Positions 4,473 to 51,186 of a stretch of DNA of 64,000 nucleotides are shown piece after piece. The notes under the pieces were generated by a model. That model was not told the origin of the DNA and searched no databases. It saw only the letters and a list, made by a program, of their open reading frames with translations. The position numbers and the translations under genes are program-made. The stretch is from NCBI RefSeq assembly GCF_003116585.1, contig NZ_QEHM01000007.1, positions 248,001-312,000 of the forward strand, written 5' to 3'. The number at the start of each line of letters is the position of its first letter. Positions within the stretch are counted from its first letter, which is position 1. The DNA is from Albibacillus kandeliae. Its GTDB lineage: Bacteria; Pseudomonadota; Alphaproteobacteria; Rhodobacterales; Rhodobacteraceae.

Positions 4473-5138
4473 ATGGGATACCAGTTCGATTTCTCGATGG
4501 TCATCAAGATCCTGCCGGTGCTCTGGCGCGGGGTGATTGTAACCGTTGAACTCACGATCGCCTGCCTTGCGGTCGGCCTGATCCTCGGCTTCTTCGTGGC
4601 CCTCCTGCGGGTTTCGCCTGCAGCGCCGCTGCGCTTTGTCGGGCGGGCCTTTGTCGAGATTTTCCGCAACATCCCGGCGCTGATTCAGCTGATCTGGTTT
4701 TTTTACGCCTTTCCCATCGTGATCGGCGCCCAGCTCTCGCCCTTTGTGGCGGCAGTGCTGGGGATCAGCCTGAACACGGCCGCCTTTTCGGCCGAAATCT
4801 ACCGCTCGGGGATCCAGTCGATCGAGCGGGGGCAGTGGGAAGGCGCCATGGCCATCGGGATGAGCCGGGCGGCCACCTTCCGGCGCGTGGTGCTGCCACA
4901 GGTGTTCCGCCGGATGCTCCCCGCCTTTACCAACCGCGCGGTGGAAGTCGCCAAGGTGACCTCGCTCGCCTCGGTGCTGAGCGTGCACGAACTGATGTAC
5001 CAGGGGCGGGTGCTGTCCTCGACATTCTACCGCCCGCTCGAGATCCTGACGACGGTGGGCCTTGTCTACCTTGTCATGATTTACCCGATGACATGGGCCT
5101 CGGCCGCGATGGAGCGCCGGATGCGGCGCCGGGCATGA
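4473..5138 (+). CDS. Amino acid ABC transporter permease 2 (HisM/GlnP type)
   Basis: A 221-residue partner of the preceding permease and clearly its paralogue (FRNIPALIQLIWFFYAFP and the EAA loop EGAMAIGMSRAATFRRV). It lies 3 bp after the first permease and its TGA overlaps an ATG (5135-5138), although the ATPase more likely starts further down at 5174. It would complete the membrane channel of this importer. Confidence 0.93.
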   Translation: MGYQFDFSMVIKILPVLWRGVIVTVELTIACLAVGLILGFFVALLRVSPAAPLRFVGRAFVEIFRNIPALIQLIWFFYAFPIVIGAQLSPFVAAVLGISLNTAAFSAEIYRSGIQSIERGQWEGAMAIGMSRAATFRRVVLPQVFRRMLPAFTNRAVEVAKVTSLASVLSVHELMYQGRVLSSTFYRPLEILTTVGLVYLVMIYPMTWASAAMERRMRRRA

Positions 5139-38104: not shown

Positions 38105-38227
38105 GTCGGTTCCTTCTTGGTCCGGTTCGGCAATCTGCCGACTCCTTCTATGGCTCACCGAATTAGTTGACAAGCAAACTTTCTTCTCTGAGAGTATTTT
38201 TCAGGGAGACAGAAAAGGGAGGTTTTC
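38105..38227. promoter_or_regulatory. Divergent control region of the enolase-marR and TTT operons
   Basis: A 123-bp gap between divergent operons. AGTTGACAAGCAAACT (38166-38181) is an imperfect dyad, TTG and CAA halves, of the size MarR dimers bind, next to an AT-rich stretch (38180-38205) suited to promoters. This is the obvious place for autoregulation by the MarR protein. Confidence 0.35.
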
Positions 38228-39184
38228 ATGTTTCGTCGAGTGATGACGGCTGTGGCCGTGACGTCGCTGTTTGCGGGCGCCGCGCTCGCCCAGGACGACT
38301 ATCCGAACAAGCCCGTGACGCTGGTCGTCGGCTTCTCGGCCGGTGGGGGGATGGACACGCTTGGCCGGTTGGTGGCTGATCGCGTGACCAAGGAGCTTGG
38401 CCAGCAGATGGTCGTCGAGAACCGGCCCGGCGCCGGTGGCACCATCGCCCCGGGCTACGTCGCCAATGCGTCGCCGGACGGCTACACGCTCTACCTGGGT
38501 GAAACCGCCGCGACCGTGGCGGACGTGGTGATCGGCGAGGTCGGGTATGACCCGATCAAGAGCTTCACCCCGATCGCACAGCTGGCCGTCGCTCCGCTTG
38601 CGCTGGTCGCGAACAATGACGTCCCGGCCTCGAACATGAGCGAGTTCGTCGAACTGGTGAAGTCTAAGCCCGGAGAGTTCTTCTATGCCTCGTCTGGAGT
38701 CGGGACGCTGCAGCACCTCGCAGGCGAGCAGCTGAACCACGATGCAGGGCTCGAGATGGAGGCGGTCCACTTTCAGGGCGGCTCGCCCTCGATTACGGCG
38801 CTGATGTCGGGCGAAGTGGAATTCGCGATCACGAGCCTCAATGCCGCGTCCTCGCAGGCGGAGGGCGGCAATCTCAAGGTGCTGGGCGTGACCACGAAGG
38901 ACCCGGTGCCCGGGTTTGAATCAATCGACACGGTGAGTTCCGTTGTCGACGGGTTCGATGCGGCGCCCCGCCAGTTCGTCATGGCCCCGGCAGGTACGCC
39001 CGCTCCGGTCATCGAAAAACTGGAGGCAGCTTTCGCCGCGGCACTCGCCGACGAAGCGCTGAGGGCGGACCTGTCTTCGCGCGGTCTGGTGCCCACCTAC
39101 CTGAGCGGCGCCGAGCTTGCGGAACAGTTGCCGGGCGTCATCGAGACGTGGTCGAGTACAGCCCGTAAGGCCCTCGACAAGTGA
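38228..39184 (+). CDS. tctC: Tripartite tricarboxylate transporter substrate-binding protein (TctC family)
   Basis: A 318-residue periplasmic TctC/Bug-family protein. The signal peptide is MFRRVMTAVAVTSLFAGAALA, and the mature part opens YPNKPVTLVVGFSAGGGMDTL, the Bug signature, then VVENRPGAGG. AGGGAGG precedes the start. Bug proteins bind dicarboxylates and other carboxylates through two water-bridged loops. It is first in the operon with an AMDase-like enzyme and the TctB and TctA subunits, so its ligand is probably the substrate of that enzyme: a malonate, maleate or aryl-substituted dicarboxylate. Confidence 0.94.
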   Translation: MFRRVMTAVAVTSLFAGAALAQDDYPNKPVTLVVGFSAGGGMDTLGRLVADRVTKELGQQMVVENRPGAGGTIAPGYVANASPDGYTLYLGETAATVADVVIGEVGYDPIKSFTPIAQLAVAPLALVANNDVPASNMSEFVELVKSKPGEFFYASSGVGTLQHLAGEQLNHDAGLEMEAVHFQGGSPSITALMSGEVEFAITSLNAASSQAEGGNLKVLGVTTKDPVPGFESIDTVSSVVDGFDAAPRQFVMAPAGTPAPVIEKLEAAFAAALADEALRADLSSRGLVPTYLSGAELAEQLPGVIETWSSTARKALDK

Positions 39185-39192
39185 GACACCTC

Positions 39193-39214
39193 GCCGCCCG
39201 GTCCTCCGGGCGGC
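39193..39214 (+). other. Intercistronic stem-loop after the TctC gene
   Basis: GCCGCCCGG (39193-39201) and CCGGGCGGC (39206-39214) form a perfect 9-bp stem with a TCCT loop between the binding-protein stop and the next start. No T-run follows. Confidence 0.65.
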
Positions 39215-39241
39215 CACTCAGCCAGCGCAAGGAGCAGCCAA

Positions 39242-39985
39242 GTGAACACGCCGGTCATCGGTATGATCGTCCCGCCCGCAGCCGGAGAGGTGCCGCCCGA
39301 GGCATACGGCCTTTTCCCCACCGGAATTCGCTTTGCCGCGCGCGGCCTCGCCCTGCGGGAAATGGCGATGAACGACTACTCCAGCGCAGTGCGACGCGTC
39401 CGCGAACTGGCGCGCGCACTTAAGGAAGAGGACGGCGCGCAGGCCATCTCCCTGATGGGGACCTCGCTGAGCTTCTTCCGTGGAGGCACGTTCAACGACG
39501 AGTTGGTCGAGATCATGCAGGCCGAGACCGGGCTGCCCGCGACCACCATGAGCAATTCGATCCGCGACGGGCTGCTCGCGGTTGGCGCCCGGCGCATCGC
39601 GGTGGGAACAGCCTATTCGAACGAAGTGAACGACTGTCTCGTGCGCTTCCTTGAACAGTCCGGATTCGAGATTGCAGCGCTTTCCGGGATGGGCATCGTC
39701 GGAGTGGACGACGTTCTGCGGGTCACGCCCGACACCGTGACTCAGTTAGGCCGGAGAGTCGCCGAGGCAGCGGAGGGCCCCATCGACGCGGTCCTGATTT
39801 CCTGCGGCGGCCTACCCGCGCTGCATCTTTGCGACGCGCTCGAAACGGACCTCGGCGTTCCGGTGATCGCAAGTTCGACCGCCGGAGTGTGGCGTGCGGC
39901 GCAGTTGCTGGGGCTCTCCGCCGAGTCCCCTGCTTTGGGCGCGCTTGGCCGTGTGCCGGCCGATCACCTGAGCCGGTTGATCTGA
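39242..39985 (+). CDS. Arylmalonate decarboxylase-type enzyme (Asp/Glu racemase superfamily)
   Basis: A 247-residue protein that by recall matches Bordetella arylmalonate decarboxylase along its length: IGMIVPPAAG at the N-terminus, SLMGTSLSFFRG (the G-T-S dioxyanion pocket, residues 73-75) and LISCGGLPALHL with the catalytic C188. Glutamate racemase and maleate isomerase have a second Cys at the G73 position; here it is Gly, as in AMDase. AMDase removes CO2 from aryl- or alkenylmalonates without a cofactor, giving a chiral acid. The start is GTG with AAGGAG upstream. It lies inside a TTT transporter operon. Confidence 0.88.
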   Translation: MNTPVIGMIVPPAAGEVPPEAYGLFPTGIRFAARGLALREMAMNDYSSAVRRVRELARALKEEDGAQAISLMGTSLSFFRGGTFNDELVEIMQAETGLPATTMSNSIRDGLLAVGARRIAVGTAYSNEVNDCLVRFLEQSGFEIAALSGMGIVGVDDVLRVTPDTVTQLGRRVAEAAEGPIDAVLISCGGLPALHLCDALETDLGVPVIASSTAGVWRAAQLLGLSAESPALGALGRVPADHLSRLI

Positions 39986-39987
39986 TC

Positions 39988-40488
39988 ATGTCCGACAGAA
40001 TGGAAATCGACAGTGACCGCCCGCTGGAAAGCGACGCGGATCAACGACTGGACGTGCGGGCTCTCATCGCCGGGATCGTCATCCTGTGCGGGTGCCTCGC
40101 CCTCACCTGGACAGCATCCGGTTATGGGATCGGCACGCCGCGCCGCATGGGGCCGGGCTTCTTCCCCTTCTACCTTGGCATCATCGGAACCGGGCTGGGT
40201 GCCCTGATGACGATCCGAGCTTTCGTCGCCCCGCTGCACGCGGGCGCGGACGTACCCCTCAGACGGGTGATTTTCATCGGCTTGGCGTTCGTCTTCTTCG
40301 CCATCGCCGTTGAACCGCTGGGGCTGGTCCTGACAATCATCGGAACCACGCTGCTTGGCGCATTTGCCGACAGGGAGGCGCGACCGCTGCAGAGCCTGAT
40401 GCTTGCCGTCGGCCTCGCCCTCTCGATCTGGGTCCTTTTCGTTGTCCTCCTCGGGCTGTCGATCCCCGTCTGGCCGGGAGCGCAATGA
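39988..40488 (+). CDS. tctB: Tripartite tricarboxylate transporter small permease (TctB family)
   Basis: A 166-residue small membrane subunit with about four hydrophobic helices (ALIAGIVILCGCLALTW, MGPGFFPFYLGIIGTGLGAL and two near the C-terminus). RRMGPGFFP is the TctB hallmark. The polar N-terminal tail is about 25 residues. It overlaps the TctA gene by 4 bp and starts 2 bp after the AMDase-type gene. It forms the membrane complex with TctA. Confidence 0.93.
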   Translation: MSDRMEIDSDRPLESDADQRLDVRALIAGIVILCGCLALTWTASGYGIGTPRRMGPGFFPFYLGIIGTGLGALMTIRAFVAPLHAGADVPLRRVIFIGLAFVFFAIAVEPLGLVLTIIGTTLLGAFADREARPLQSLMLAVGLALSIWVLFVVLLGLSIPVWPGAQ

Positions 40489-41978
40489 TGGAAACCTTCG
40501 CCAACCTCGCCGGCGGGTTCGCCACGGCCCTGACCGCCGTGAACCTCTTCTACTGCTTTGCCGGTGTCGCCATGGGAACGCTCATCGGCGCCCTGCCCGG
40601 CCTCGGCGCCATGCTGGGCATCGCCCTGCTGCTGCCTCTTACCATGTACCTCACCCCAGAGGCAGCGATCATCATGCTCGCCGGGATCTACTATGGCGGC
40701 GAATACGGAGGGTCAATTTCCGCGATCCTGATCAATGTCCCCGGCACCCCGTCCTCGACTGTTGCAACCCTCGACGGGCACGCGATGACCAAGCAGGGGC
40801 GTGCTGCCGTTGCCTTGTTCGCGTCGGCCATGGCGTCCTTCATCGCGGGCTCGGTGGGCATCATCCTGATGATGCTGTTCTCACCGCTCATCGCCAAGAT
40901 CGCCCTCAGCTTCGGCTCCGTCGAATACTTCGCGGTCATGTTGCTCGGCCTCGTCGGCGCCGCTGCGGTTGCAAGCGGGTCGCGGCTGAATGCCCTCGTC
41001 GCGGTGCTCATGGGTGTGGTCTTTGGCACCGTCGGCACAGACATAAGCTCTGGCGTCCAGCGCTTTACCCTCGGCTTCCCCGAGTTCATCTCGGGCATCA
41101 GCCTTGTTGCCCTCGCGATGGGCATTTTCGGGTTCGCCGAGATCGCCTGCTCGCACACCACCAGCATCTCCGACAAGTCGAGCAGCAAGATCCGCCTTCG
41201 CGACATGCTGCCGACCCGCGACGAGGTTCGCAGAAGCTTCGGACCGCTCTTTCGCGGCACGGCGCTTGGCGCGCTGCTCGGCGCCCTGCCCGGAACCGGG
41301 CCGACGATCGCGTCCTTCATGGCCTACGCACAGGAGAGACGGGTGTCGCGTCATGGCGACCAGTTCGGCAAGGGCGCGATCGAAGGCATCGTGGCGCCCG
41401 AATCCGCGAACAACGCGGCGGCGCAGACGGCGTTCATCCCGACCCTGACGCTCGGCATTCCGGGCACTGCGACAATGGCCCTGATCCTTGGCGCCCTGAT
41501 CGTTCAGGGCATACAGCCGGGCCCACGGATGATGGTCGAAAATGCCAACCTGTTCTGGGCCCTGATCGCCAGCTTCTGGATCGGCAACCTGTTCCTGCTG
41601 GTCCTGAACATCCCGCTGGTCGGGCTCTGGGTCAAACTGGTGCGCGTCCCCTACCGCTTCCTGTTTCCCAGCATCATCTGCCTGATCTCGGTCGGGGTCT
41701 ACAGCATCGACCTGAACACTTTCGGCGTTCTGGTCGTCACCGGGATCGGGCTCATCGGCTGCCTGATGCGTGCGGCAGCCATTCCTGCCGCACCGTTCCT
41801 CATGGGGTTCATTCTGGGGCCGCTGATGGAGGAAAACCTCCGACGCGCGCTGCAACTGTCCCGGGGAAGCTTTGTCGACTTCCTGTCGTCCCCCATCGCC
41901 GCAGTCTGCTTCGCGCTGACGGCGCTTGCGCTTCTGCTGCCTATTGCGGCCGCCTTGGTCGCGATGCGGCGGACCTGA
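40485..41978 (+). CDS. tctA: Tripartite tricarboxylate transporter large permease (TctA family)
   Basis: A 497-residue, highly hydrophobic TctA protein with about eleven or twelve helices. The conserved GTLIGALPGLGAMLGIALLLPLTMYL and YYGGEYGGSISAILINVPGTP are present, and the second repeat GALPGTGPTIASFMAY shows the internal duplication. It couples uptake to a cation gradient. It ends 24 bp from the convergent class II aldolase gene, with no terminator visible. Confidence 0.95.
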   Translation: MMETFANLAGGFATALTAVNLFYCFAGVAMGTLIGALPGLGAMLGIALLLPLTMYLTPEAAIIMLAGIYYGGEYGGSISAILINVPGTPSSTVATLDGHAMTKQGRAAVALFASAMASFIAGSVGIILMMLFSPLIAKIALSFGSVEYFAVMLLGLVGAAAVASGSRLNALVAVLMGVVFGTVGTDISSGVQRFTLGFPEFISGISLVALAMGIFGFAEIACSHTTSISDKSSSKIRLRDMLPTRDEVRRSFGPLFRGTALGALLGALPGTGPTIASFMAYAQERRVSRHGDQFGKGAIEGIVAPESANNAAAQTAFIPTLTLGIPGTATMALILGALIVQGIQPGPRMMVENANLFWALIASFWIGNLFLLVLNIPLVGLWVKLVRVPYRFLFPSIICLISVGVYSIDLNTFGVLVVTGIGLIGCLMRAAAIPAAPFLMGFILGPLMEENLRRALQLSRGSFVDFLSSPIAAVCFALTALALLLPIAAALVAMRRT

Positions 41979-42002: not shown

Positions 42003-42803
42003 TCAGCTCCGGTACTGAGGCTCCTCGGCGTCCAGCTGGCGCCGGACCGAGGCCAGATGCAGCTGCGCAGATTCCAGCGCGCCTTCCTGCATCTGCGCCG
42101 CTGTGGCCTCTGCGATCTCGGGCGAGACCGGGAGGACCTTGCGACCGGTGGACATGGCGAGGGTCTGCACCTGGGCGGCCCGCTCAAGGTAGTAGAGGTC
42201 GTCCCAAGCCCTGGCGATGGTCGGGGCCAGCACCATCACGCCGTGGTTCTTCATGAAGACGATGTCGGCATCGCCCACCGCTTCGGCAATCCGGGCCCCC
42301 TCGGCCTGATCGAGTGCAAGGCCGTTGTAGTTCTCGTCCACTGCCGTCCGGCCGTAGAACTGCAGCGCCGTCTGGCCCGCCCAGATCAGCGGCTCGCCCT
42401 CGGTCATGGCCAGCGCCGTTGCGTAGGGCATGTGCGTATGGAACGCGACCCGCGCGCGCGGCAGAAGCCGGTGAAGCTCTGCATGGATGTAGAAGGCGGT
42501 GGCTTCGGGAGTGCCATCACCGTCAACGACGTTGCCGTGGAAATCGCAGACCAGCAGGTCAGGTGCTTTCAGTTCGCGGAACGCATAGCCATAGGGGTTC
42601 ACGATGAACAGGTCGTCGTGACCGGGCACCAGCGCCGAGAAATGGTTGCAGATGCCTTCCTCGAACCCGAGACGGGCAGCCATCCGGAAGCAGGCCGCCA
42701 GGTCTTCCTTTGCCTCCCGGATCGCATCGCTGGCGAAATCCGGGTGGTTGTGCCTGAGGCTCGCATCCGAGGGACCGGTCGAGTTGGAAAGAGAATGGGC
42801 CAT
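42003..42803 (-). CDS. Class II aldolase/adducin-family protein
   Basis: A 266-residue class II aldolase of the L-fuculose-phosphate type. The zinc His residues are visible in AFHTHMPYATAL (two His) and in IVFMKNHGVMVL, with the N-terminal EGICNHFSALVPG as the phosphate or ligand loop. It is last in the minus-strand operon HyuB-HyuA-isochorismatase-KRCGH lyase-aldolase, 107 bp after the lyase gene. The activity could be aldol cleavage, epimerisation or decarboxylation. CAGGAGTC precedes the ATG. Confidence 0.9.
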   Translation of the reverse strand: MAHSLSNSTGPSDASLRHNHPDFASDAIREAKEDLAACFRMAARLGFEEGICNHFSALVPGHDDLFIVNPYGYAFRELKAPDLLVCDFHGNVVDGDGTPEATAFYIHAELHRLLPRARVAFHTHMPYATALAMTEGEPLIWAGQTALQFYGRTAVDENYNGLALDQAEGARIAEAVGDADIVFMKNHGVMVLAPTIARAWDDLYYLERAAQVQTLAMSTGRKVLPVSPEIAEATAAQMQEGALESAQLHLASVRRQLDAEEPQYRS

Positions 42804-42830
42804 GGGTCGGGACTCCTGTACGTAAGGTTA

Positions 42831-42860
42831 GCCTGTCATTGCCAGCAACGGGCGACAGGC
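42831..42860 (-). other. Inverted repeat upstream of the aldolase gene
   Basis: GCCTGTC (42831-42837) and GACAGGC (42854-42860) form a 7-bp perfect dyad with a 16-nt spacer in the 107-bp gap between lyase and aldolase. It could be an attenuating hairpin or a processing site. Confidence 0.35.
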
Positions 42861-42910
42861 GAAAGCCCCATGTGGGCCCGGCACACTTCGGCGCCGGTTG
42901 CGGCTGAACC

Positions 42911-43783
42911 TCAGGCCTTGTCTTCGTAGCGACGGCCATTCTCGATCATGGTCGGCGTGCCGATCCGCTGGTTCAGACCGTCAAAGTCGAACATCCGCTC
43001 GCGGAAGGCCACGTTGGATCCGGTCCCGAGCAGGCTGGCGTAATATTCCTCGGCCGTCCGTGCGAGCGCACGTACGATCCCGCCCGGGAAGATCACCAGC
43101 GAGTAGCCGAGGTCCTGCAACTGCTCCGGCGGCACCATCGGTGTCGCCCCGCCCTCGACCATATTCGCCATGAGCGGTACGCGGCTGCCGAGAATTTCAC
43201 CGACCTTTCGAAGCTGGTCCAGGCTGCGCGGCGCCTCGATGAAGAGCGCGTCGGCCCCGGCCTCGATATAGGCAGCCCCCCGTTCCAACGCGGCATCAAA
43301 CCCCTCGACGGCAATCGCATCGGTCCGACCGATGATCAGCGTCTCCTCCGAGGCCCTCGCATCCGCCATCGCCCGGATCTTGCCGCACATCTCGCTTGTC
43401 GGGATCAGCGACTTGTCCGAGAGGTGACCGCATCGCTTGGGATAGGTCTGGTCCTCGACCTGCAGCGCCGAGGCGCCCGCCCGCTCATATATCCGCATGG
43501 TTCGCTGCGCGTTCAGCGCATTTCCGAACCCGGTGTCGGCGTCGATCACGATGGGCAGAGAAATCCGGTCCCGGATCAGCGCCAGCGTGTCCGCCATCTC
43601 GGTCATCGTGGACAGGCCGATGTCGGGCATTCCAAGGCGCGTGTAGGCGACTGCCGCACCGGAGAGATAGACGGCCTTGAACCCCGCCTTTTCAGCTATG
43701 GAAGCGGTGAGGGCATCGAAGACGCCCGGCGCCAGAAGGATTTCGGGTGCTGCAAGCAGTTCGCGCAGGCTGGGACCGCTCAT
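42911..43783 (-). CDS. Isocitrate lyase/PEP mutase-family C-C lyase
   Basis: A 290-residue lyase. The signature K116-R117-C118-G119-H120 is complete, so this is a true lyase (2-methylisocitrate, 2,3-dimethylmalate or oxaloacetate type) and not PEP mutase. Mg2+ ligands D81, D83 and E110 are visible in PIVIDADTGFG and ALQVEDQ. SGAAVAYTRLGMPDIGLSTMTEM differs from PrpB and recalls dimethylmalate lyase. It would split a 2-hydroxy-succinate derivative into pyruvate or glyoxylate plus an acid. It lies in the operon between the isochorismatase-like (4-bp overlap) and aldolase genes. Confidence 0.9.
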   Translation of the reverse strand: MSGPSLRELLAAPEILLAPGVFDALTASIAEKAGFKAVYLSGAAVAYTRLGMPDIGLSTMTEMADTLALIRDRISLPIVIDADTGFGNALNAQRTMRIYERAGASALQVEDQTYPKRCGHLSDKSLIPTSEMCGKIRAMADARASEETLIIGRTDAIAVEGFDAALERGAAYIEAGADALFIEAPRSLDQLRKVGEILGSRVPLMANMVEGGATPMVPPEQLQDLGYSLVIFPGGIVRALARTAEEYYASLLGTGSNVAFRERMFDFDGLNQRIGTPTMIENGRRYEDKA

Positions 43784-44397
43784 GATGCCAACTCCTGTCG
43801 GGCGAGGAAGTCGGCGCAGGTCTCCTGCTCGACGACCGAGCCAAGCGAGACCAGCGTCGCGTCGTGCACGTCGCTCTTGAAGGCCCCGCAGCCGTCAGTC
43901 AGCAGGATGATCCTGTACCCGCGCATATGCGCATCGCGGACGGTCGAGGCGACGCCGCCGTTGGTGACGATGCCAGCCACCACCAGCGTGTCGATGCCCA
44001 ACCCCTTAAGAACATGTTCCATCCGGGTCTGGTAGAAGGCGGAATAGGCGACCTTCTCGATCTCCACGTCGGGCGGGAGAAGCTCATCCACGGCCTTGTT
44101 GCCCCAGGAGTCCGGGGCGAAGTCGCCTTCCTTCAGGAAGGGACGCAGCTCCTTCAGGTGCGGCGCGATCAGGAAGGGGCGCCCCCGCACATGCTCGATG
44201 GTGAACTGGACCGAGACAAAGACCCCGCCCTTGTCGCGAAGGGCAGGCAGGATCGGCGCCACGCGCCCCGGCAGCGCGGCGAGTTCCGGTGTGCCCTGCC
44301 CGGCGCGGCCATAGGCGCCATCGGGATGCAGGAAGTCGTTGGTAAGGTCGATTGTCACCAGCGCGGTTTTCGCCGGATCGATTGGTCCGCCGCTCAT
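43780..44397 (-). CDS. Isochorismatase-superfamily protein with Gly in place of the catalytic Cys
   Basis: A 205-residue cysteine-hydrolase-fold protein. D17 (VTIDLTNDF) and K115 (EKVAYSAF) are kept, but the nucleophile position in T-N-x-C-V is G148 (GIVTNGGVAST). True isochorismatases such as PhzD also have Gly there and cleave a vinyl ether without covalent catalysis. Nicotinamidase, biuret hydrolase and maleamate hydrolase have Cys and use it. So amide hydrolysis by the usual mechanism is excluded. It overlaps both neighbours (HyuA and the lyase) by 4 bp. Confidence 0.88.
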   Translation of the reverse strand: MSGGPIDPAKTALVTIDLTNDFLHPDGAYGRAGQGTPELAALPGRVAPILPALRDKGGVFVSVQFTIEHVRGRPFLIAPHLKELRPFLKEGDFAPDSWGNKAVDELLPPDVEIEKVAYSAFYQTRMEHVLKGLGIDTLVVAGIVTNGGVASTVRDAHMRGYRIILLTDGCGAFKSDVHDATLVSLGSVVEQETCADFLARQELAS

Positions 44398-46463
44398 GCC
44401 TGTTCTCCCTTCTGTTCGATGATGATGTTGCCGTAGCTGTCAACAGTGGCGCTGAGCCAGGGTTCGACAAAGATCGTCGCATCGGGCTGCTCCAGCACCG
44501 CGGGTCCGTCGACCCGCGCCCCGACGGGCAATTCGAGCCGTGCCACGATGCGCGCCTCTTCCCACTGGCCCCGCACGAAAACAGGTCGTGATCCGCGCTC
44601 GGCGGCTTCGACAGTGGCGTCCTTGGCCGGGGCAAGGCGGGCAAGGTCGAACTTGGGCCGCTTGCCGATAACCGAGGATCGCAGGTTCAGCACCCGGATA
44701 CCCGATTTCAGAAGCCGCCCGTACAGCCCGCGATAGCTGGCCTCGAACGCTTCGCGAACGGCTTCCCGCGTCGGAGCCTGCACACGGCCATTCTCGACCT
44801 TGACCGTGATCGGCACCGACACCGTGTGGGTCTGGCCGATGTAGGCCATGTCGAGCTCGAAACGCTCCTCGCGGGAGGCGAACTCGGATCCGGCGCTTTC
44901 CAGCACCATCTGGCCCTCGTCGAAATGGGTCTGCATGTGGTCGGCCAGACCGGGCAGATCGAGCGCGTCGAGCGTGGCGTTGACGGTTTGCACGAAATCC
45001 TGCCGCATGTCGGCAATCACGCAGCCCATTGCCGAGGTGACGCCCGGAAAGCGCGGGATCAGCGCGCGCCCGATGCCCACCTCGTCGATCATCGCCCCGG
45101 CATGCAGGGCTCCGCCGCCGCCGAAGGGCATGTAGGCGAACTTGGCCGGATCGTGCCCGCGTTCGATGCTGACCAGCCGGATCGCGCCCGCCATGCGCGA
45201 GTTGGCAACCCGCACGATGGCCTCCGCCGCCTCCATCACCCCAAGCCCGAGAGGCTTGGCGACGTGTTCCTCGATCGCGACCTTGGCCGCCTCGAGGTCC
45301 AGTGCGCCCAGTCCCTTGCCGAGCGGCCGCGTCGCGTCGATCCGGCCCAGCACGATGTTCGCGTCGGTCACCGTGGGACGGGTATTGCCGCGCCCGTAGG
45401 CGACCGGCCCCGGGTTCGACCCGGCGCTTTCCGGCCCGATGGTCAGCAGACCGCCCGCATCGACCGACGCGATGGAACCGCCGCCCGCGCCGATGGTCGC
45501 AATCTCGATCATCGGGGTCCGGACCACCATTCCGAAGTCAATCGAGGTCTGGGGCGAGACGACGGTCTCGCCACCCACGATCATCGAGACGTCAAAGCTG
45601 GTCCCGCCCATGTCGCCGGTGATCAGGTTGGCATAGCCAGCCGTCTCGGCGATGTAGCCTGCAGCAATCACCCCTGCGGAGGGGCCGGACAGCGCTGTTC
45701 GCACCGGACGCTTGCAGGCGGTGTCGACCGACATCACCCCGCCGTTCGACTGCACGATCATGAATTCGCCACCGAAACCGCCACCCTTCAGCGCTGTTTC
45801 CAGCCGCGCGAGGTAGCCCGCGACCTCGGGCTGAAGATAGCCGTTCAGCGCGGTCGTCGAGAACCGCTCGAACTCGCGGATCTCGGGCAGAATCTCGGAG
45901 GACGCGGCGACGTGCGGGTTGTGCCAGACGGCGCGCAACGCCTCCACCGCGGCCTGCTCGTTGACCGGGTTCGCATATGCGTTGACGAAAAGCACCACGA
46001 CCGCCTCGCAGCCCTGCGCCTGCAGAGCCTTCGCCGCGTCGCGGACCGCGTCGAGATCGACCGGCTGATCGACCGTCCCGTCGGCAAGCACGCGCTCCGA
46101 AACCTCCAGGCGCAGGTCGCGCGGAACAACAGGCGTGAAGTCCCCGCGCAGCCCCCAGGTGCGGGGCCGGTCGCGGCGGCGCATCTCCAGCACGTCACGG
46201 AAGCCCGCGGTGGTGATCACCCCGGTTCTTGCACCCTTGCGTTCCAGCAGCGCGTTCGTCCCGGCCGTGGTGCCGTGCACCAGCGAACGGATCCGGCCCA
46301 TGTCTGGCTGGGCGGCGCGGATGCCGTCGAGAAACCCGCCGGACTGGTCCGGGCGCGTGGTCGGCACCTTGGCGACGGCGGTTTCCCCGGTCCCCAGGTC
46401 CAGCGAGAAGACGTCCGTGAAGGTCCCGCCGACATCGACTCCGATGATGCTCCCGAGGCTCAT
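44394..46463 (-). CDS. hyuA: Hydantoinase/oxoprolinase subunit A (HyuA)
   Basis: A 689-residue HyuA-type subunit. The N-terminal hydantoinase/oxoprolinase domain contains GVDVGGTFTDVFSLD, an ATP-binding motif of the actin-like fold, and the middle shows GDMGGTSFDVSMIVGG and GAGGGSIASVD, the family hallmarks. Together with HyuB it performs ATP-dependent cleavage of a lactam ring (N-methylhydantoin, 5-oxoproline) or, in acetone carboxylase relatives, carboxylation. The start at 46463 overlaps the HyuB stop. Which activity applies here is not shown by sequence. Confidence 0.93.
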   Translation of the reverse strand: MSLGSIIGVDVGGTFTDVFSLDLGTGETAVAKVPTTRPDQSGGFLDGIRAAQPDMGRIRSLVHGTTAGTNALLERKGARTGVITTAGFRDVLEMRRRDRPRTWGLRGDFTPVVPRDLRLEVSERVLADGTVDQPVDLDAVRDAAKALQAQGCEAVVVLFVNAYANPVNEQAAVEALRAVWHNPHVAASSEILPEIREFERFSTTALNGYLQPEVAGYLARLETALKGGGFGGEFMIVQSNGGVMSVDTACKRPVRTALSGPSAGVIAAGYIAETAGYANLITGDMGGTSFDVSMIVGGETVVSPQTSIDFGMVVRTPMIEIATIGAGGGSIASVDAGGLLTIGPESAGSNPGPVAYGRGNTRPTVTDANIVLGRIDATRPLGKGLGALDLEAAKVAIEEHVAKPLGLGVMEAAEAIVRVANSRMAGAIRLVSIERGHDPAKFAYMPFGGGGALHAGAMIDEVGIGRALIPRFPGVTSAMGCVIADMRQDFVQTVNATLDALDLPGLADHMQTHFDEGQMVLESAGSEFASREERFELDMAYIGQTHTVSVPITVKVENGRVQAPTREAVREAFEASYRGLYGRLLKSGIRVLNLRSSVIGKRPKFDLARLAPAKDATVEAAERGSRPVFVRGQWEEARIVARLELPVGARVDGPAVLEQPDATIFVEPWLSATVDSYGNIIIEQKGEQA

Positions 46464-48214
46464 TCCGCGTTCCCTCTCCAGGCATTTCCATAGGCTGCGT
46501 CGGCCTGATCGGCCGACAGGTATCCAAGCGCCACGTCACGGGCGACCTCAGCCGCCGGACGCTCCGAGGCCGGGCCGTAGCCGCCGCCGCCGGGGCTTTG
46601 CAGGCGCACTTTCTGCCCCTGTTTCAGGACGATCCCGCGCATCTTCGAGGTCATCGGGGGCTGGTGCCAGCCATCGTCCTGTTCGTAGTCGAAGCGGTTC
46701 ACCGCGGCACCGCCGCCCCCCGCAACACCCTTGGGTGGGAACTTGCCCCGCTCGCCGAAGAAGAAGGCCTCGGCCCCGTTCTCTTCCAGCACCTCGATCT
46801 CGTAGACCGCGCCAAGCCCGCCGCGGTGCTTACCCACACCGGCGGACCCTTCCCGCAGCGCCCATTGCCGGAACGCCACAGGGTAAGCCGCCTCGAGGAT
46901 CTCCACCGGCGGGATCGTCGCCATCGAAATCGGAGCCGACCCGTGGTTCAGCCCGTTGCCTTCGGGTGTGCCGCCGTGACCGCCCCCGTAGAAGCTGAAC
47001 ATGACCCAGCGCTGCCCGTTCGATTTCTTACCGGCGATGGAGAGCGCATTGATCGTGCCATAGGCATTGGCCACCACACGGTCCGGCGCGGCCTGCGACG
47101 CGGCCGAGAAGATCACGTCGATCATCCGCAGGATGGTCTCGGTATAGCCGCCCGTCGGGGCCGGGAACTCGGCCGACAGCAGGCTGTGCTCGGGCACCTT
47201 GATGTCGATGGGTTTCATCACCCCGGCGTTGGCCGGCAGCGACGGGAAGATATGCTTGATCGCCACGTAGACACAGGCGATCGAGGTCGGCAGGGCAATG
47301 TTGATCGGTCCCGCCACCTGCGGCGCGCAACCGGTGAAATCCAGGCTCAGCCTGTCACCCTTCACCTCCAGAGCCACCTTGATTGGCAGCGGCACGTCGG
47401 TGATGCCGTCGTTGTCGAGGTAGTCGATCGCCTCCCAGCGGCCATCTGGCAGCGCCTCCACCTCGCGCCGCAGCAGCGTTTCGGCCCGGATGGCGAGCGC
47501 CGCCAGCGCCTCGTTCACCGTGTCGCCGCCGTATTCGTCGAGCAGCGCGTCAAGCCGCTTGATCCCGAGATCAAGCGCGCCGAGCTGGCCGTTCACGTCG
47601 CCCTCGGCGGATTGCGGCAGGCGGGTGTTGCGCAGGATGATGTCGAGGATGTCGGTCCGCAGTTCGCCCTCGGCCATCAGCTTGACGGGCGGCAGGACAA
47701 CCGCCTCCTGAAATACCTCGGTGGCCGCCGGGTTGTAGTTGCCGGGCACCGCGCCGCCCACGTCGTGCCAGTGGCCAACGGAGGCGAGCCAACAGAACAG
47801 CTTGCCCTCCCGGAAGTAGGGACGCACCAGCCGCATATCAGACAGGTGGGTGCCGCCGATGTGGGCGTCGTTGAAGATCCAGACGTCACCGTCCTTGGGC
47901 CCGCCGGACTCGGCCGCCTTGTCGATGACCGCCTTCACGGCAAAGGCCATCACACCGACGAAGATCGGCAGGCCGTTCTTGCCCTGCACCATCGTTTCGC
48001 CGGTTTCGGCGTGGTAGATACCGTGGCTTGCGTCGTGGGCTTCTGCAATGATCGGATTGAAGGCCGAGCGGAACAGCGTCGCATCCATCTCGTCGGCGAT
48101 CTGCTCCATCCGCCCCGCGAGGATCGCGAGGGTGATGGGGTCGACCCCCTGCTCCGGCCCGCGCGCCTTTTCCGTTCTGTCCACGGCCTCTCCGGCCGTA
48201 CCGACATGCGCCAT
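46460..48214 (-). CDS. hyuB: Hydantoinase/oxoprolinase subunit B (HyuB)
   Basis: A 584-residue HyuB-type subunit. VDPITLAILAGRMEQIADEMDATLFRSAFN is the standard opening, followed by DVWIFNDAHIGGTHLSDMRL and the Gly-rich C-terminal GVAGGGGAAVNRF. The ATG at 48214 has GGGAG upstream; a TTG directly before it is unlikely. It is the first gene of the minus-strand catabolic operon and divergent from the GntR/LeuCD operon. It forms the catalytic complex with HyuA and requires ATP and Mg2+. Confidence 0.93.
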   Translation of the reverse strand: MAHVGTAGEAVDRTEKARGPEQGVDPITLAILAGRMEQIADEMDATLFRSAFNPIIAEAHDASHGIYHAETGETMVQGKNGLPIFVGVMAFAVKAVIDKAAESGGPKDGDVWIFNDAHIGGTHLSDMRLVRPYFREGKLFCWLASVGHWHDVGGAVPGNYNPAATEVFQEAVVLPPVKLMAEGELRTDILDIILRNTRLPQSAEGDVNGQLGALDLGIKRLDALLDEYGGDTVNEALAALAIRAETLLRREVEALPDGRWEAIDYLDNDGITDVPLPIKVALEVKGDRLSLDFTGCAPQVAGPINIALPTSIACVYVAIKHIFPSLPANAGVMKPIDIKVPEHSLLSAEFPAPTGGYTETILRMIDVIFSAASQAAPDRVVANAYGTINALSIAGKKSNGQRWVMFSFYGGGHGGTPEGNGLNHGSAPISMATIPPVEILEAAYPVAFRQWALREGSAGVGKHRGGLGAVYEIEVLEENGAEAFFFGERGKFPPKGVAGGGGAAVNRFDYEQDDGWHQPPMTSKMRGIVLKQGQKVRLQSPGGGGYGPASERPAAEVARDVALGYLSADQADAAYGNAWRGNAE

Positions 48215-48260
48215 CAACGCGACTCCCTGCTTTTTGTCATTGATCAGCCTACAGGCTTCC

Positions 48261-48278
48261 TGTATCTTTTAAAATACA
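48261..48278. promoter_or_regulatory. Candidate GntR/UTRA operator
   Basis: TGTATCTTTTAAAATACA is an 18-bp near-palindrome (TGTAT...ATACA) in the AT-rich divergent gap between hyuB and the GntR gene. It overlaps a second dyad, TACAGG-CTT-CCTGTA (48250-48264). Both suit a dimeric repressor controlling both operons. Confidence 0.5.
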
Positions 48279-48386
48279 AATTTCTGATTTTCAACTCAGG
48301 ATATTCGCTGGTGGCAAAAGTACAGAATAGTTGCATGATGTGTCATCAGACCGCTGCGACGGATACATAGGCAGGAAAGGCATTTC

Positions 48387-49181
48387 ATGACGGTACAGAA
48401 CGGAGCCGCAGCCCCGGAAGGCGGGAAGGCAAGACGCATCTACCTGCTTCTTCGCGACGAGATCCTCGGCGGGACCCACGCCCCCGGAGAGGCGCTTCCC
48501 GGTGAGCTCCGACTGGCCGAGAGTCATGGCGTCTCGCGCGTGACCATTCGCAGGGCGCTGGATGCGCTGGTCGGCGACGGCCTTGTCGAGCGGCGTGCCG
48601 GCAGCGGCACGGTCGTGCGCCAGCCGAGTTCGACGCCGGTCCAGCTCAAGGCCGATTTCGCGACCCTTATGCCCCAGCTCGAACGGATGGCCGCCGAGAC
48701 CACGGCGCGGCTCCTGTCCTTTGCCTATGTCTCGCCACCGCAACAGGTCGGCAAGGCGCTGAACCTCGGTCCCGACGAGAAGGTGCAGCGCGCGGTTCGG
48801 CTTCGCCGCGCCCACGACAAGGCCTTCTCGCACCTTACCACCTACGTTCCCGAGCGCATCGCCGAGAGCTACTCCGAGGCCGACCTCGCCAGTACGCCGC
48901 TGTTCCGCCTGCTGGAACGCAAGGGTGTGCGGGTCGATCATGCGCGCCAGACCGTGTCGGCCGTGCTGGCGACCCCGGAAACCGCCGAACCGCTGGAAAC
49001 GACCGTTGGGGCCGCGCTGATCTCGCTGACCCGGGTGGTCTATGACGCCAGCGGCGACGGAATCGAATACCTCTACGCCCTGTACCGCCCGGACCGGTTC
49101 CAGCTCGAGATGCTGCTCAACCGGGTCGGCGGCAACGACGACCGGCACTGGGCGCCGGTGCTCAGCGAGACGACTCAATGA
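48387..49181 (+). CDS. GntR-family regulator with UTRA domain
   Basis: A 264-residue HutC-type regulator: winged helix at about residues 15-80 (LPGELRLAESHGVSRVTIRRALDALVGDG) and UTRA effector domain at about 100-250 ending in YLYALYRPDRFQLEM. Its TGA overlaps the ATG of leuC, so regulator and dehydratase are co-expressed. That strongly suggests it responds to a metabolite of this pathway and not to leucine. It probably also controls the divergent hyuBA operon through the dyads at 48250-48278. AGGAAAGG precedes the ATG. Confidence 0.92.
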   Translation: MTVQNGAAAPEGGKARRIYLLLRDEILGGTHAPGEALPGELRLAESHGVSRVTIRRALDALVGDGLVERRAGSGTVVRQPSSTPVQLKADFATLMPQLERMAAETTARLLSFAYVSPPQQVGKALNLGPDEKVQRAVRLRRAHDKAFSHLTTYVPERIAESYSEADLASTPLFRLLERKGVRVDHARQTVSAVLATPETAEPLETTVGAALISLTRVVYDASGDGIEYLYALYRPDRFQLEMLLNRVGGNDDRHWAPVLSETTQ

Positions 49182-50575
49182 CCCCACGGACGATGCTCGA
49201 CAAGCTCTGGGACAGCCACGAGATCCTGACGCGCGAGGATGGCGCGTCACTTCTGTGGGTGGACCGGCATTTCGTGCATGAAGGCTCGCACCACGCCTTC
49301 GCCAAGATCGCCGAGCGCGGCATGAAGGTCCGCCATCCCGAGCTGACTTTCGGCGTGGCCGATCACTACGTTCCGACCCACGGCACCGCCGCTTCGCCCG
49401 ATATCGCCCGGATGATCCGGACGCTGTCCGAGAACACCGCCCGGCATGGTATCGAGCTGTTCGGCGTCGGTGACCCGCGTCAGGGCATCGTCCATGTCTC
49501 CGGCCCCGAACAGGGTGTCACGCTGCCCGGCCTGCTGATCGTTTGCGGCGACAGTCACACGGCAACGCACGGCGCGCTGGGGGCCTACAGCTTTGGCATC
49601 GGCGCGACCGAGGTGGCGCATGTGCTGGCCACGCAGACCATCTGGCAGAATAAACCCCGCCGGATGCGATTGGCCGTCGAAGGCGAACTTGCTCCCGGGG
49701 TGGGCGCAAAGGACATTGCCCTGAACTGGATCTCGCTGCTCGGGGCAGACGGGGCACGGGGCCACGCCATCGAGTACACCGGATCGGCCGTGCGCGGCCT
49801 CAGCGTCGAAGGCCGCCTCACGCTCTGCAACCTCTCCATCGAGGGTGGCGCGCGCAGCGGCATGGTGCCCCCCGACGAGGTGACGCTGGCGTGGATCAAG
49901 GGCCGCCCCTACGCCCCATCCGGCGCTCAATGGGCGCGTGCCTGCGACAGCTTCCTCGCGCTCGCCCCGGATGCAGGCGCCGAATACGACCGCGAGGCCA
50001 CGCTCGACGCCGCCGAGATCGCCCCAATCGTGACATGGGGCACCAGCCCGGAAGAGGCCCTGCCGATCACCGGTCGTGTCCCCGACCCGGCGCGGGCGCG
50101 GACCGAAGCCGAGGCCAAGCGGATTTCGGACTCGCTGGACTACATGGGCCTGAAACCGGGTCAGTCGCTCACGGATACGCAGGTGGACCAGATTTTCATC
50201 GGCTCCTGCACCAATGGCCGCATCGAGGACCTGCGCAGCGCCGCCGCCGTTCTGCGTGGCCGCAAGGCCGTTGTCCCCGGCCTGATCTCGCCCGGCTCGG
50301 CACAGATCAAACAGCAGGCCGAGGCCGAGGGGCTCGACAAGATCTTCACCGAGGCCGGTCTCGAATGGGTCGACTCCGGCTGCTCCATGTGCGTCGGCAT
50401 GAATGGTGACCTCGTTGCCGCGGGCAAGCGCTGCGCCTCCACCACCAACCGCAATTTCCGGGGTCGGCAAGGCAAGGGCGCACGTACGCACCTGATGAGC
50501 CCCGCCATGGCCGCCGCCGCAGCTGTCACCGGCCACCTCACCGATGCCCGCCCCCTGCTGGAGGGACGTCTCTGA
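49178..50575 (+). CDS. leuC: 3-isopropylmalate dehydratase large subunit-type hydro-lyase (LeuC-like)
   Basis: A 465-residue aconitase-superfamily large subunit. The [4Fe-4S] cluster ligands are C344 (GSCTNGRIED), C402 and C405 (SGCSMCVG). Substrate residues cluster around VADHYVPTHG and GDSHTATHGALG. It hydrates or isomerises a maleate/malate-type acid together with LeuD. Being coupled to a local GntR regulator inside a catabolic block, it is more probably a dedicated hydratase for a substituted maleate (citraconate, dimethylmaleate or isopropylmaleate-like) than the leucine biosynthesis enzyme. Confidence 0.93.
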   Translation: MTPRTMLDKLWDSHEILTREDGASLLWVDRHFVHEGSHHAFAKIAERGMKVRHPELTFGVADHYVPTHGTAASPDIARMIRTLSENTARHGIELFGVGDPRQGIVHVSGPEQGVTLPGLLIVCGDSHTATHGALGAYSFGIGATEVAHVLATQTIWQNKPRRMRLAVEGELAPGVGAKDIALNWISLLGADGARGHAIEYTGSAVRGLSVEGRLTLCNLSIEGGARSGMVPPDEVTLAWIKGRPYAPSGAQWARACDSFLALAPDAGAEYDREATLDAAEIAPIVTWGTSPEEALPITGRVPDPARARTEAEAKRISDSLDYMGLKPGQSLTDTQVDQIFIGSCTNGRIEDLRSAAAVLRGRKAVVPGLISPGSAQIKQQAEAEGLDKIFTEAGLEWVDSGCSMCVGMNGDLVAAGKRCASTTNRNFRGRQGKGARTHLMSPAMAAAAAVTGHLTDARPLLEGRL

Positions 50576-51186
50576 TGACCGGCTGGACAAGGATCGAAGG
50601 CCGCGCCACTGCCCTGCCCGTCGAGAACATCGATACCGACCAGTTGATCCCCGCGCGGTTCATGTCGACGCCGCGCTCGGAAGGATATGGCGACTTCCTG
50701 CTCTACGACATGCGCCACGGGGACGACGGCCAGCCCGACCCGGAGTTTGCCCTGAACCGGCCCGAGGCCAAGGGCGCGCGCATCCTGATCACCCGTCGCA
50801 ACTTTGGCGCGGGCTCCTCGCGCGAGGCGGCCGTCTACGCGCTGGTCGACGCCGGGATCCAGGTGGTGATCGCCCCGAGCTTTGGCGATATCTTCTCGTC
50901 GAATGCCATCAACAACGGCCTGCTTCCCGCTCGTCTTGATGCCGAGGTGGTGGAGGTGTTGCTCGCCGCCTGCGCGGTGGACCTGACCGTCGATCTGGAG
51001 AGCCTCATGATCACCGGGCCGGGGGTGAGCTTTGCGTTCGAGCTGGACCCGGTCTGGCGGCAGAAGCTGATCAACGGCTGGGACGACATCGACCTGACGC
51101 TGGCCCATGCGGATGAGATCGCGGCCTTTGCCGAGGATCGGAAAGAGCGTGCGCCCTGGGTCTGGCCCGCCCCGGTTCAGGGCTGA
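50575..51186 (+). CDS. leuD: 3-isopropylmalate dehydratase small subunit-type (LeuD-like)
   Basis: A 203-residue swivelling subunit. NIDTDQLIPARFM is the family signature, and NFGAGSSREAAVYALVDAGI carries the catalytic Ser/Arg loop that distinguishes LeuD from aconitase partners. It shares 1 bp with leuC (TGATG). It completes the cluster enzyme, since small-subunit residues set the substrate side chain. Its 3' end overlaps the convergent SnoaL-like gene by 10 bp. Confidence 0.93.
   Translation: MTGWTRIEGRATALPVENIDTDQLIPARFMSTPRSEGYGDFLLYDMRHGDDGQPDPEFALNRPEAKGARILITRRNFGAGSSREAAVYALVDAGIQVVIAPSFGDIFSSNAINNGLLPARLDAEVVEVLLAACAVDLTVDLESLMITGPGVSFAFELDPVWRQKLINGWDDIDLTLAHADEIAAFAEDRKERAPWVWPAPVQG

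Follow-up and report, generated by a model that had tools for sequence, protein, structure and literature searches.

An Arylmalonate Decarboxylase Gene within a TTT Transporter Operon of Albibacillus kandeliae and Its Enolase-Superfamily Partner

Organization of the Locus

The gene considered here encodes an arylmalonate decarboxylase (AMDase) and is located in a window (the whole stretch of DNA analyzed) of 64,000 nt, covering positions 248,001-312,000 on the forward strand of the Albibacillus kandeliae contig NZ_QEHM01000007.1 (GCF_003116585.1). The decarboxylase gene, amd, belongs to a tctC-amd-tctB-tctA gene run that is divergent from marR and from a gene for an enolase-superfamily protein of the mandelate racemase/muconate lactonizing enzyme (MR/MLE) type (Table 1). 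The tctB gene starts 2 bases past the amd stop, and tctB and tctA overlap by 4 bases; therefore, the genes form a tight operon. TctA, TctB, and TctC each scored above the Pfam cut-off, making up a complete tripartite tricarboxylate transporter (TTT) set. The initial annotation had placed amd between the binding-protein gene and the membrane-subunit genes of a TTT transporter, accompanied by a MarR regulator and a divergent enolase-superfamily gene; this arrangement was confirmed, the last two also being over their Pfam cut-offs. The same operon order was found in the five nearest relatives (L040-L044).

Table 1. Features of the amd operon and its divergent genes (positions are those of the window).
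Feature	Position	Strand	Remarks
MarR-family regulator, 173 aa	36403..36924	-	downstream of MR/MLE gene; Pfam MarR 43.7 bits
MR/MLE-type enolase-superfamily protein, 386 aa	36944..38104	-	divergent from operon; Pfam MR_MLE_N + MR_MLE_C
Promoter/operator-like element GTTGACA-N5-ACTTTCT-N4-TGAGAGT	38166..38201	+	upstream of tctC; putative function
TctC solute-binding protein, 318 aa	38228..39184	+	Pfam TctC 194.2 bits; PDB relatives include 5oei, BugD 2f5x
Arylmalonate decarboxylase (AMDase), 247 aa	39242..39985	+	GTG start; NF052327, Pfam Amdase, structure match 3ixl
TctB small membrane subunit, 166 aa	39988..40488	+	Pfam TctB 63.6 bits on frame read from 39952
TctA large membrane subunit, 497 aa	40485..41978	+	Pfam TctA 503.8 bits

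Identification of the Arylmalonate Decarboxylase

Judged by its sequence, the amd product is an arylmalonate decarboxylase (EC 4.1.1.76). It passed the NCBIfam equivalog model NF052327 (arylmal_decarb) with 286.2 bits at a cut-off of 225, scored 281.7 bits with Pfam Amdase, and fell below the cut-off of the EutA model (73.9 bits, cut-off 318). Against chains of the Protein Data Bank (PDB), it scored 173.4 bits with the Bordetella AMDase and at most 49.2 bits with maleate isomerases. The enzyme of Bordetella bronchiseptica KU1201 (PDB 3dg9, 3ip8) resembles it in catalytic residues, fold, and length and differs at more than half of the sequence, the identity being 104 of 231 aligned positions (45%). 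The G73-T74-S75 motif, Y125, and the single C188 are all kept, in agreement with the initial annotation, which had pointed to the GTS motif and the lone cysteine. The dioxyanion hole is represented by T74, S75, Y125, and G189 (Bordetella T75, S76, Y126, and G189), and the hydrophobic pocket by L38, M41, Y46, V155, and V158 (Bordetella L40, V43, Y48, V156, and M159); P14 and P15 (Bordetella numbering) are also present. All single residues of Table 4 in Maimanakos et al. 2016, mapped to Bordetella numbering, are kept except for V43, replaced by Met, and M159, replaced by Val. Motif 11 (LMGTSLSF) is unchanged, and in motif 12 the protein has VLISCGGL where Bordetella has ILLSCGGL; these changes and the two pocket substitutions are conservative. 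The two active-site cysteines of maleate isomerase and of Asp/Glu/hydantoin racemases were not found in the amd product, which has Gly at the first of these positions.

For comparison, genome contigs were scanned with an alignment of six AMDases, which gave 100 confirmed relatives, and the best 80 (the nearest relatives) were kept. Together with the window, the second copy from the same genome (L034), and L039, they formed a set of 83 loci; L035, a two-Cys locus, and L036, L037, and L038, equal to L057, L062, and L043, respectively, were excluded before counting. Genes at the loci were detected by tblastn, and gene calls came from a simple open reading frame (ORF) caller. The counts given below are to be read with the composition of the set in mind, since some flanks end at contig ends and Variovorax is over-represented. 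The FastTree phylogeny included 107 sequences, namely 79 of the 83 loci, the Bordetella chain, and 27 below-cut-off homologues; the other four loci had a stop codon within the matched stretch. Since the tree was rooted on a two-Cys paralogue (L003), the node uniting all AMDases carries no support value. The 80 AMDases clustered together with none of the 27 homologues among them, and the amd product thus stands with known AMDases. Gly occupied the position of the racemase Cys in all 80 AMDase rows, and Cys was found there in 21 of the 27 homologues, which agrees with the Gly noted at this position in the initial annotation.

The AlphaFold model of the protein (predicted local distance difference test (pLDDT) 89.0) was compared with known structures by VIA-align. 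It was closest to AMDase 3ixl (Z 35.5, root-mean-square deviation (rmsd) 1.6 over 233 residues) and Bordetella AMDase 3dg9 (Z 35.0, rmsd 1.6 over 230 residues), with maleate isomerases at Z 29.6 and rmsd 2.1 over 235-236 residues. Profile match, residues, tree, and predicted fold all agree on the AMDase type.

Comparison with Described AMDase Loci

The AMDase-in-TTT-operon arrangement was published in 2016 and is not new. The available extracts of the survey by Maimanakos et al. (PMC4996985) report 63 putative AMDase genes with five TTT clusters, complete TTT systems beside AMDase genes in Alphaproteobacteria, frequently orphan TTT binding-protein genes in Betaproteobacteria, and an MR/MLE gene at 61% of AMDase loci, and they propose substrate uptake. 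According to the same extracts, AMDases occurred only in Alpha-, Beta-, and Gammaproteobacteria, and two amd genes in one genome were known as of 2016 only for Nitratireductor pacificus. The TTT linkage and the uptake proposal are repeated in the available part of a 2018 review (PMC5812351). The central point is known, because the TTT and MR/MLE linkages were published in 2016 (PMC4996985) and the TTT linkage was discussed again in 2018 (PMC5812351); the linkages to the transporter and the enolase are both real, and as findings they were overstated in the initial annotation, being already in print. As far as the extracts describe the TTT-IV and TTT-V clusters (PMC4996985), the window shares with them amd beside all three TTT genes, an alphaproteobacterial host, and a nearby MR/MLE gene; no essential difference was found. 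In the tree, the closest neighbors of the Bordetella enzyme are from loci L068, L047, and L065, which carry TctC without TctA or MR/MLE, unlike the window.

The Enolase-Superfamily Partner

An MR/MLE orthologue, defined by at least 200 bits within the flank of the AMDase locus, was found in 56 of the 83 loci, including the window, and all belong to a single orthologous group. The divergent gene is thus not incidental; among the enzyme partners of AMDase in this set, it is the most frequent. Transporters at these loci were TctA in 13 (two also with DctM), TctC alone in 38, and TRAP (tripartite ATP-independent periplasmic) type in 5. The orthologues are rare genome-wide: only 10 of 385 genomes of the class matched at 1e-100, the best two being the two genomes with an above-cut-off AMDase. 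AMDase and MR/MLE distances were correlated in 22 thinned loci (r 0.61, a value reached in 0 of 5000 permutations). The clade of AMDase-linked MR/MLE sequences also includes three unlinked ones.

The active site was read through an alignment to 3bjs and 3msy, using 54 of the 56 members (two were truncated), and was uniform in all 54. The strand-2 motif is K-M-[T/V], with the second Lys of KxK absent; two of the metal-ligand residues are conserved (D207 and E233), with Q259 at the third such position; the Asp and His positions of the His-Asp dyad are N282 and Gly-Gly, respectively; and E330, H318, and H332 do not vary. The Gln of the third metal site is not unique by itself, because 3msy also has Gln there. 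The bases of mandelate racemase, K166 and the His297-Asp270 dyad, are both missing, and a mandelate racemase role is disfavored; a muconate-cycloisomerase role is disfavored by the missing second Lys only. The AlphaFold model (pLDDT 92.1) matched 2ovl (Z 45.6, rmsd 2.0 over 348 residues) and mandelate racemase 1mns (Z 42.3, rmsd 2.3 over 348 residues), so the predicted fold is that of an ordinary MR-subgroup enolase and gives no function.

Seven related MR/MLE proteins came from genomes without an above-cut-off AMDase. All of them share the Gln and Asn, and Gly-Gly was found in six and Gly-Ala in one. Their neighbors include PdxA- and DHDPS-type genes (L134), isocitrate/isopropylmalate-dehydrogenase-type genes (L139), TctA (L136 and L137), and an above-cut-off tartrate dehydrogenase with an MmgE/PrpD gene (L137); no such partner gene was found beside the relative in L138. 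At L135 (7927-10577), a UbiD-family decarboxylase gene is located directly upstream of an MR/MLE gene resembling the AMDase partner, and the genome does not appear in the AMDase matches at 1e-50; it looks as though one type of decarboxylase had taken the other's place.

The Second AMDase and Linked Hydroxy-Acid Enzymes

The same genome encodes a second AMDase (contig C27:286373-287059; L034 9365-10069; 311.9 bits) in a cluster with TRAP, IlvD, and HIBADH genes. An IlvD/EDD dehydratase together with a HIBADH-type (beta-hydroxyacid) dehydrogenase was detected near AMDase at 7 of the 83 loci, never with MR/MLE; a HIBADH-type match without IlvD occurred at one locus (L097). For the L037 copies, Pfam confirmed both families. 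In NCBIfam, the dehydratase passed the subfamily cut-off for dihydroxy-acid dehydratase, and the dehydrogenase reached none of the cut-offs, with 2-hydroxy-3-oxopropionate reductase as its top model. The IlvD loci formed one clade of the AMDase tree (support 0.994), sister to the clade with MR/MLE and TRAP, with one change overall; therefore, the replacement of MR/MLE by IlvD counts as one event. Five IlvD-family genes were found in the A. kandeliae genome at 1e-40, of which the best (819.5 bits) is a separate one on contig C2.

A third homologue (C27:344590-345243; L003 and L035) was rejected as an AMDase: it exceeded the Pfam Amdase cut-off, but it was under the NF052327 cut-off and has Cys at the Gly position. 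This two-Cys paralogue adjoins HyuA/HyuB-type genes (38% and 30% identity to those of the window) and is possibly a hydantoin-type racemase.

An FMN (flavin mononucleotide)-dependent 2-hydroxyacid dehydrogenase (FMN_dh) gene was located near 19 of the 83 AMDases, 18 of these with MR/MLE, which required at least five changes on the tree. The one protein tested (L064) had L-lactate oxidase and (S)-mandelate dehydrogenase as its nearest structures and was below every NCBIfam cut-off. The mandelate pathway of Pseudomonas putida combines the racemase MdlA with the FMN-dependent (S)-mandelate dehydrogenase MdlB. The 18 AMDase loci resemble it in having an enolase-superfamily gene near an FMN 2-hydroxyacid dehydrogenase; however, the AMDase-linked enolase lacks both racemase bases, and no FMN gene was found in the flank of the window locus.

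Control Region and Other Genes

The GTTGACA sequence was present 5′ of tctC in all six clade loci examined, with 13 occurrences in total, those six included, on both strands of 146 kb; it is a candidate promoter. The palindrome ACTTTCT-N4-TGAGAGT is weak, with two mismatches in the window copy and one in that of L043, and was not clear in the other four clade loci; a MarR operator at this element is a guess. A MarR homologue (42-54% identity) was found near AMDase in 9 of the 82 other loci.

Beyond tctA, region 42003-51186 of the window is a catabolic stretch with genes for a class II aldolase, a PrpB-like lyase, an isochorismatase-type hydrolase, HyuA, HyuB, and the large and small subunits of the aconitase family, as well as a GntR-like ORF recognized by eye. 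The Hyu, isochorismatase, PrpB-like, and aldolase genes (42003-48217) were rejected as specific pathway partners, being convergent to tctA and rarely near AMDases. The HyuA-HyuB-isochorismatase-PrpB set occurred near only one other AMDase of the set, in Sneathiellales (L057), about 5-9 kb away and in another internal order. Of 147 relatives, 29 had a PrpB-like gene at 1e-70, and 26 of these lacked an above-cut-off AMDase; in genome G062, whose AMDase is close to that of the window, the gene is on another contig.

Twin-arginine (Tat) leader-like starts were observed in seven of eight AMDases checked (L072, L079, L088, L090, L101, L105, and L111, with gene starts at 4969, 8929, 8929, 8911, 2418, 8920, and 8920, respectively) and not in L104. 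These seven exceed the NF052327 cut-off and come from four acidobacterial and three gammaproteobacterial metagenome-assembled genomes. No match to TctA/TctC, DctM/DctP, or MR/MLE was found in the flanks examined, which are short in L101 and L072. If such an AMDase is exported, it would meet its substrate outside the cytoplasm.

Proposed Function and Alternative Explanations

The locus probably serves to import an external substituted malonate and to decarboxylate it without a cofactor, with the enolase-superfamily partner processing the product or its precursor further. Uptake and decarboxylation of such a compound had been suggested in the initial annotation and is still the best reading of the locus. 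As expected from their families, TctC would catch the dianion outside the membrane and TctAB would import it. The reaction chemistry is taken from published work on the Bordetella AMDase, only the residues being observed in the amd product. One carboxylate would be held in the dioxyanion hole (T74, S75, Y125, and G189), and the other would lie in the hydrophobic pocket (L38, M41, Y46, V155, and V158) and leave as CO2; the enediolate, stabilized by a pi-substituent, would then be protonated by C188 on one face, yielding the (R)-acid. This monoacid, or its precursor, may be processed further by the enolase-superfamily partner, which in other lineages would be joined by the FMN-dependent 2-hydroxyacid dehydrogenase or replaced by the IlvD-type dehydratase and beta-hydroxyacid dehydrogenase. 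MarR probably controls the divergent promoters.

The linked MR/MLE, IlvD/hydroxyacid dehydrogenase, and FMN_dh genes and the Tat-like leaders suggest that a substituted malonate from outside the cell, perhaps a hydroxylated one, is catabolized. With less certainty than the other parts of the explanation, a hydroxylated (tartronate-type) alkenyl or aryl malonate is a plausible substrate class; the available text of PMC4517146 reports that AMDase accepts alpha-hydroxy-alpha-alkenyl and alpha-hydroxy-alpha-phenyl malonates.

Three other explanations were weighed. The amd product might be a maleate isomerase, hydantoin racemase, or other Asp/Glu-type isomerase acting on an imported diacid; it does belong to the same superfamily (Pfam Asp_Glu_race 48.5 bits, cut-off 31), and maleate isomerases fit its model well. 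However, Gly stands in place of the first catalytic Cys, the protein is separate from all 27 below-cut-off homologues in the tree, and both the PDB chain scores and the model place it closer to AMDase, which makes an isomerase very improbable; the isomerization of a related diacid, offered as an option in the initial annotation, was accordingly dropped. It is about equally improbable that the TTT genes and amd are mere neighbors without functional coupling. Orphan TTT binding-protein genes are frequent in Betaproteobacteria, going by the available extracts of PMC4996985, and the transporter type differs among AMDase loci, but amd lies within the tct operon just ahead of tctB, and this gene order recurs in L040-L044.

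Somewhat unlikely, though well ahead of these two, is an AMDase-like enzyme for which arylmalonates are fortuitous and whose natural substrate is another acid, e.g., a beta-keto or hydroxy polyacid from a linked dehydratase-type enzyme. The linked genes belong to sugar-acid or hydroxy-acid types, and in AMDase-less genomes a related enolase gene has as its neighbor a gene for a UbiD decarboxylase (at L135) or one of the tartrate dehydrogenase type (at L137). Against this, all 80 AMDase rows agree in the residues of the dioxyanion hole and at the Cys/Gly positions, across differing transporters.

Import and decarboxylation of a substituted malonate can be extended to a more specific and rather doubtful proposal, in which AMDase would catalyze one step of a widespread, as yet undescribed pathway for the breakdown of a hydroxylated gem-dicarboxylate from outside the cell. 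Its constant partner would have a new enolase-superfamily activity, that of a dehydratase or eliminase rather than of a racemase or cycloisomerase, and would be replaceable by an IlvD-type dehydratase; it may act before AMDase, installing the adjacent double bond needed for cofactor-free decarboxylation, and an (S)-2-hydroxyacid dehydrogenase would take the product onward in several lineages.

Several points weigh against the malonate reading. A natural source of this kind of gem-dicarboxylate is not known to us. Neither an MR/MLE nor an IlvD partner was found at 20 of the 83 loci. The mutual exclusion of MR/MLE and IlvD rests on one switch in the tree, and a biosynthetic role for the IlvD beside the second AMDase is possible because its score of 619.0 bits is just over the ilvD cut-off of 618.15. 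The flank of the window locus has no FMN dehydrogenase, as mentioned above, and the FMN_dh and IlvD families are common, being present in 14 of 14 control genomes, and the linkage figures are plain counts. Phenylmalonate is a better AMDase substrate than alpha-hydroxy-alpha-phenyl malonate in the available text of PMC4517146. AMDase was found in 1990 and has been engineered for profen synthesis, and the accessible part of a 2026 paper (PMC13096762) still describes its natural substrate as unknown; none of the papers among the literature matches listed names it.

The linked enzymes narrow the hunt for the natural AMDase substrate without settling it. Their comparison provides testable leads, namely the ligands of TctC, the reaction of the enolase-superfamily enzyme with its unusual active site, and the substitute set of IlvD and hydroxyacid dehydrogenase, any one of which could reveal the missing AMDase pathway.

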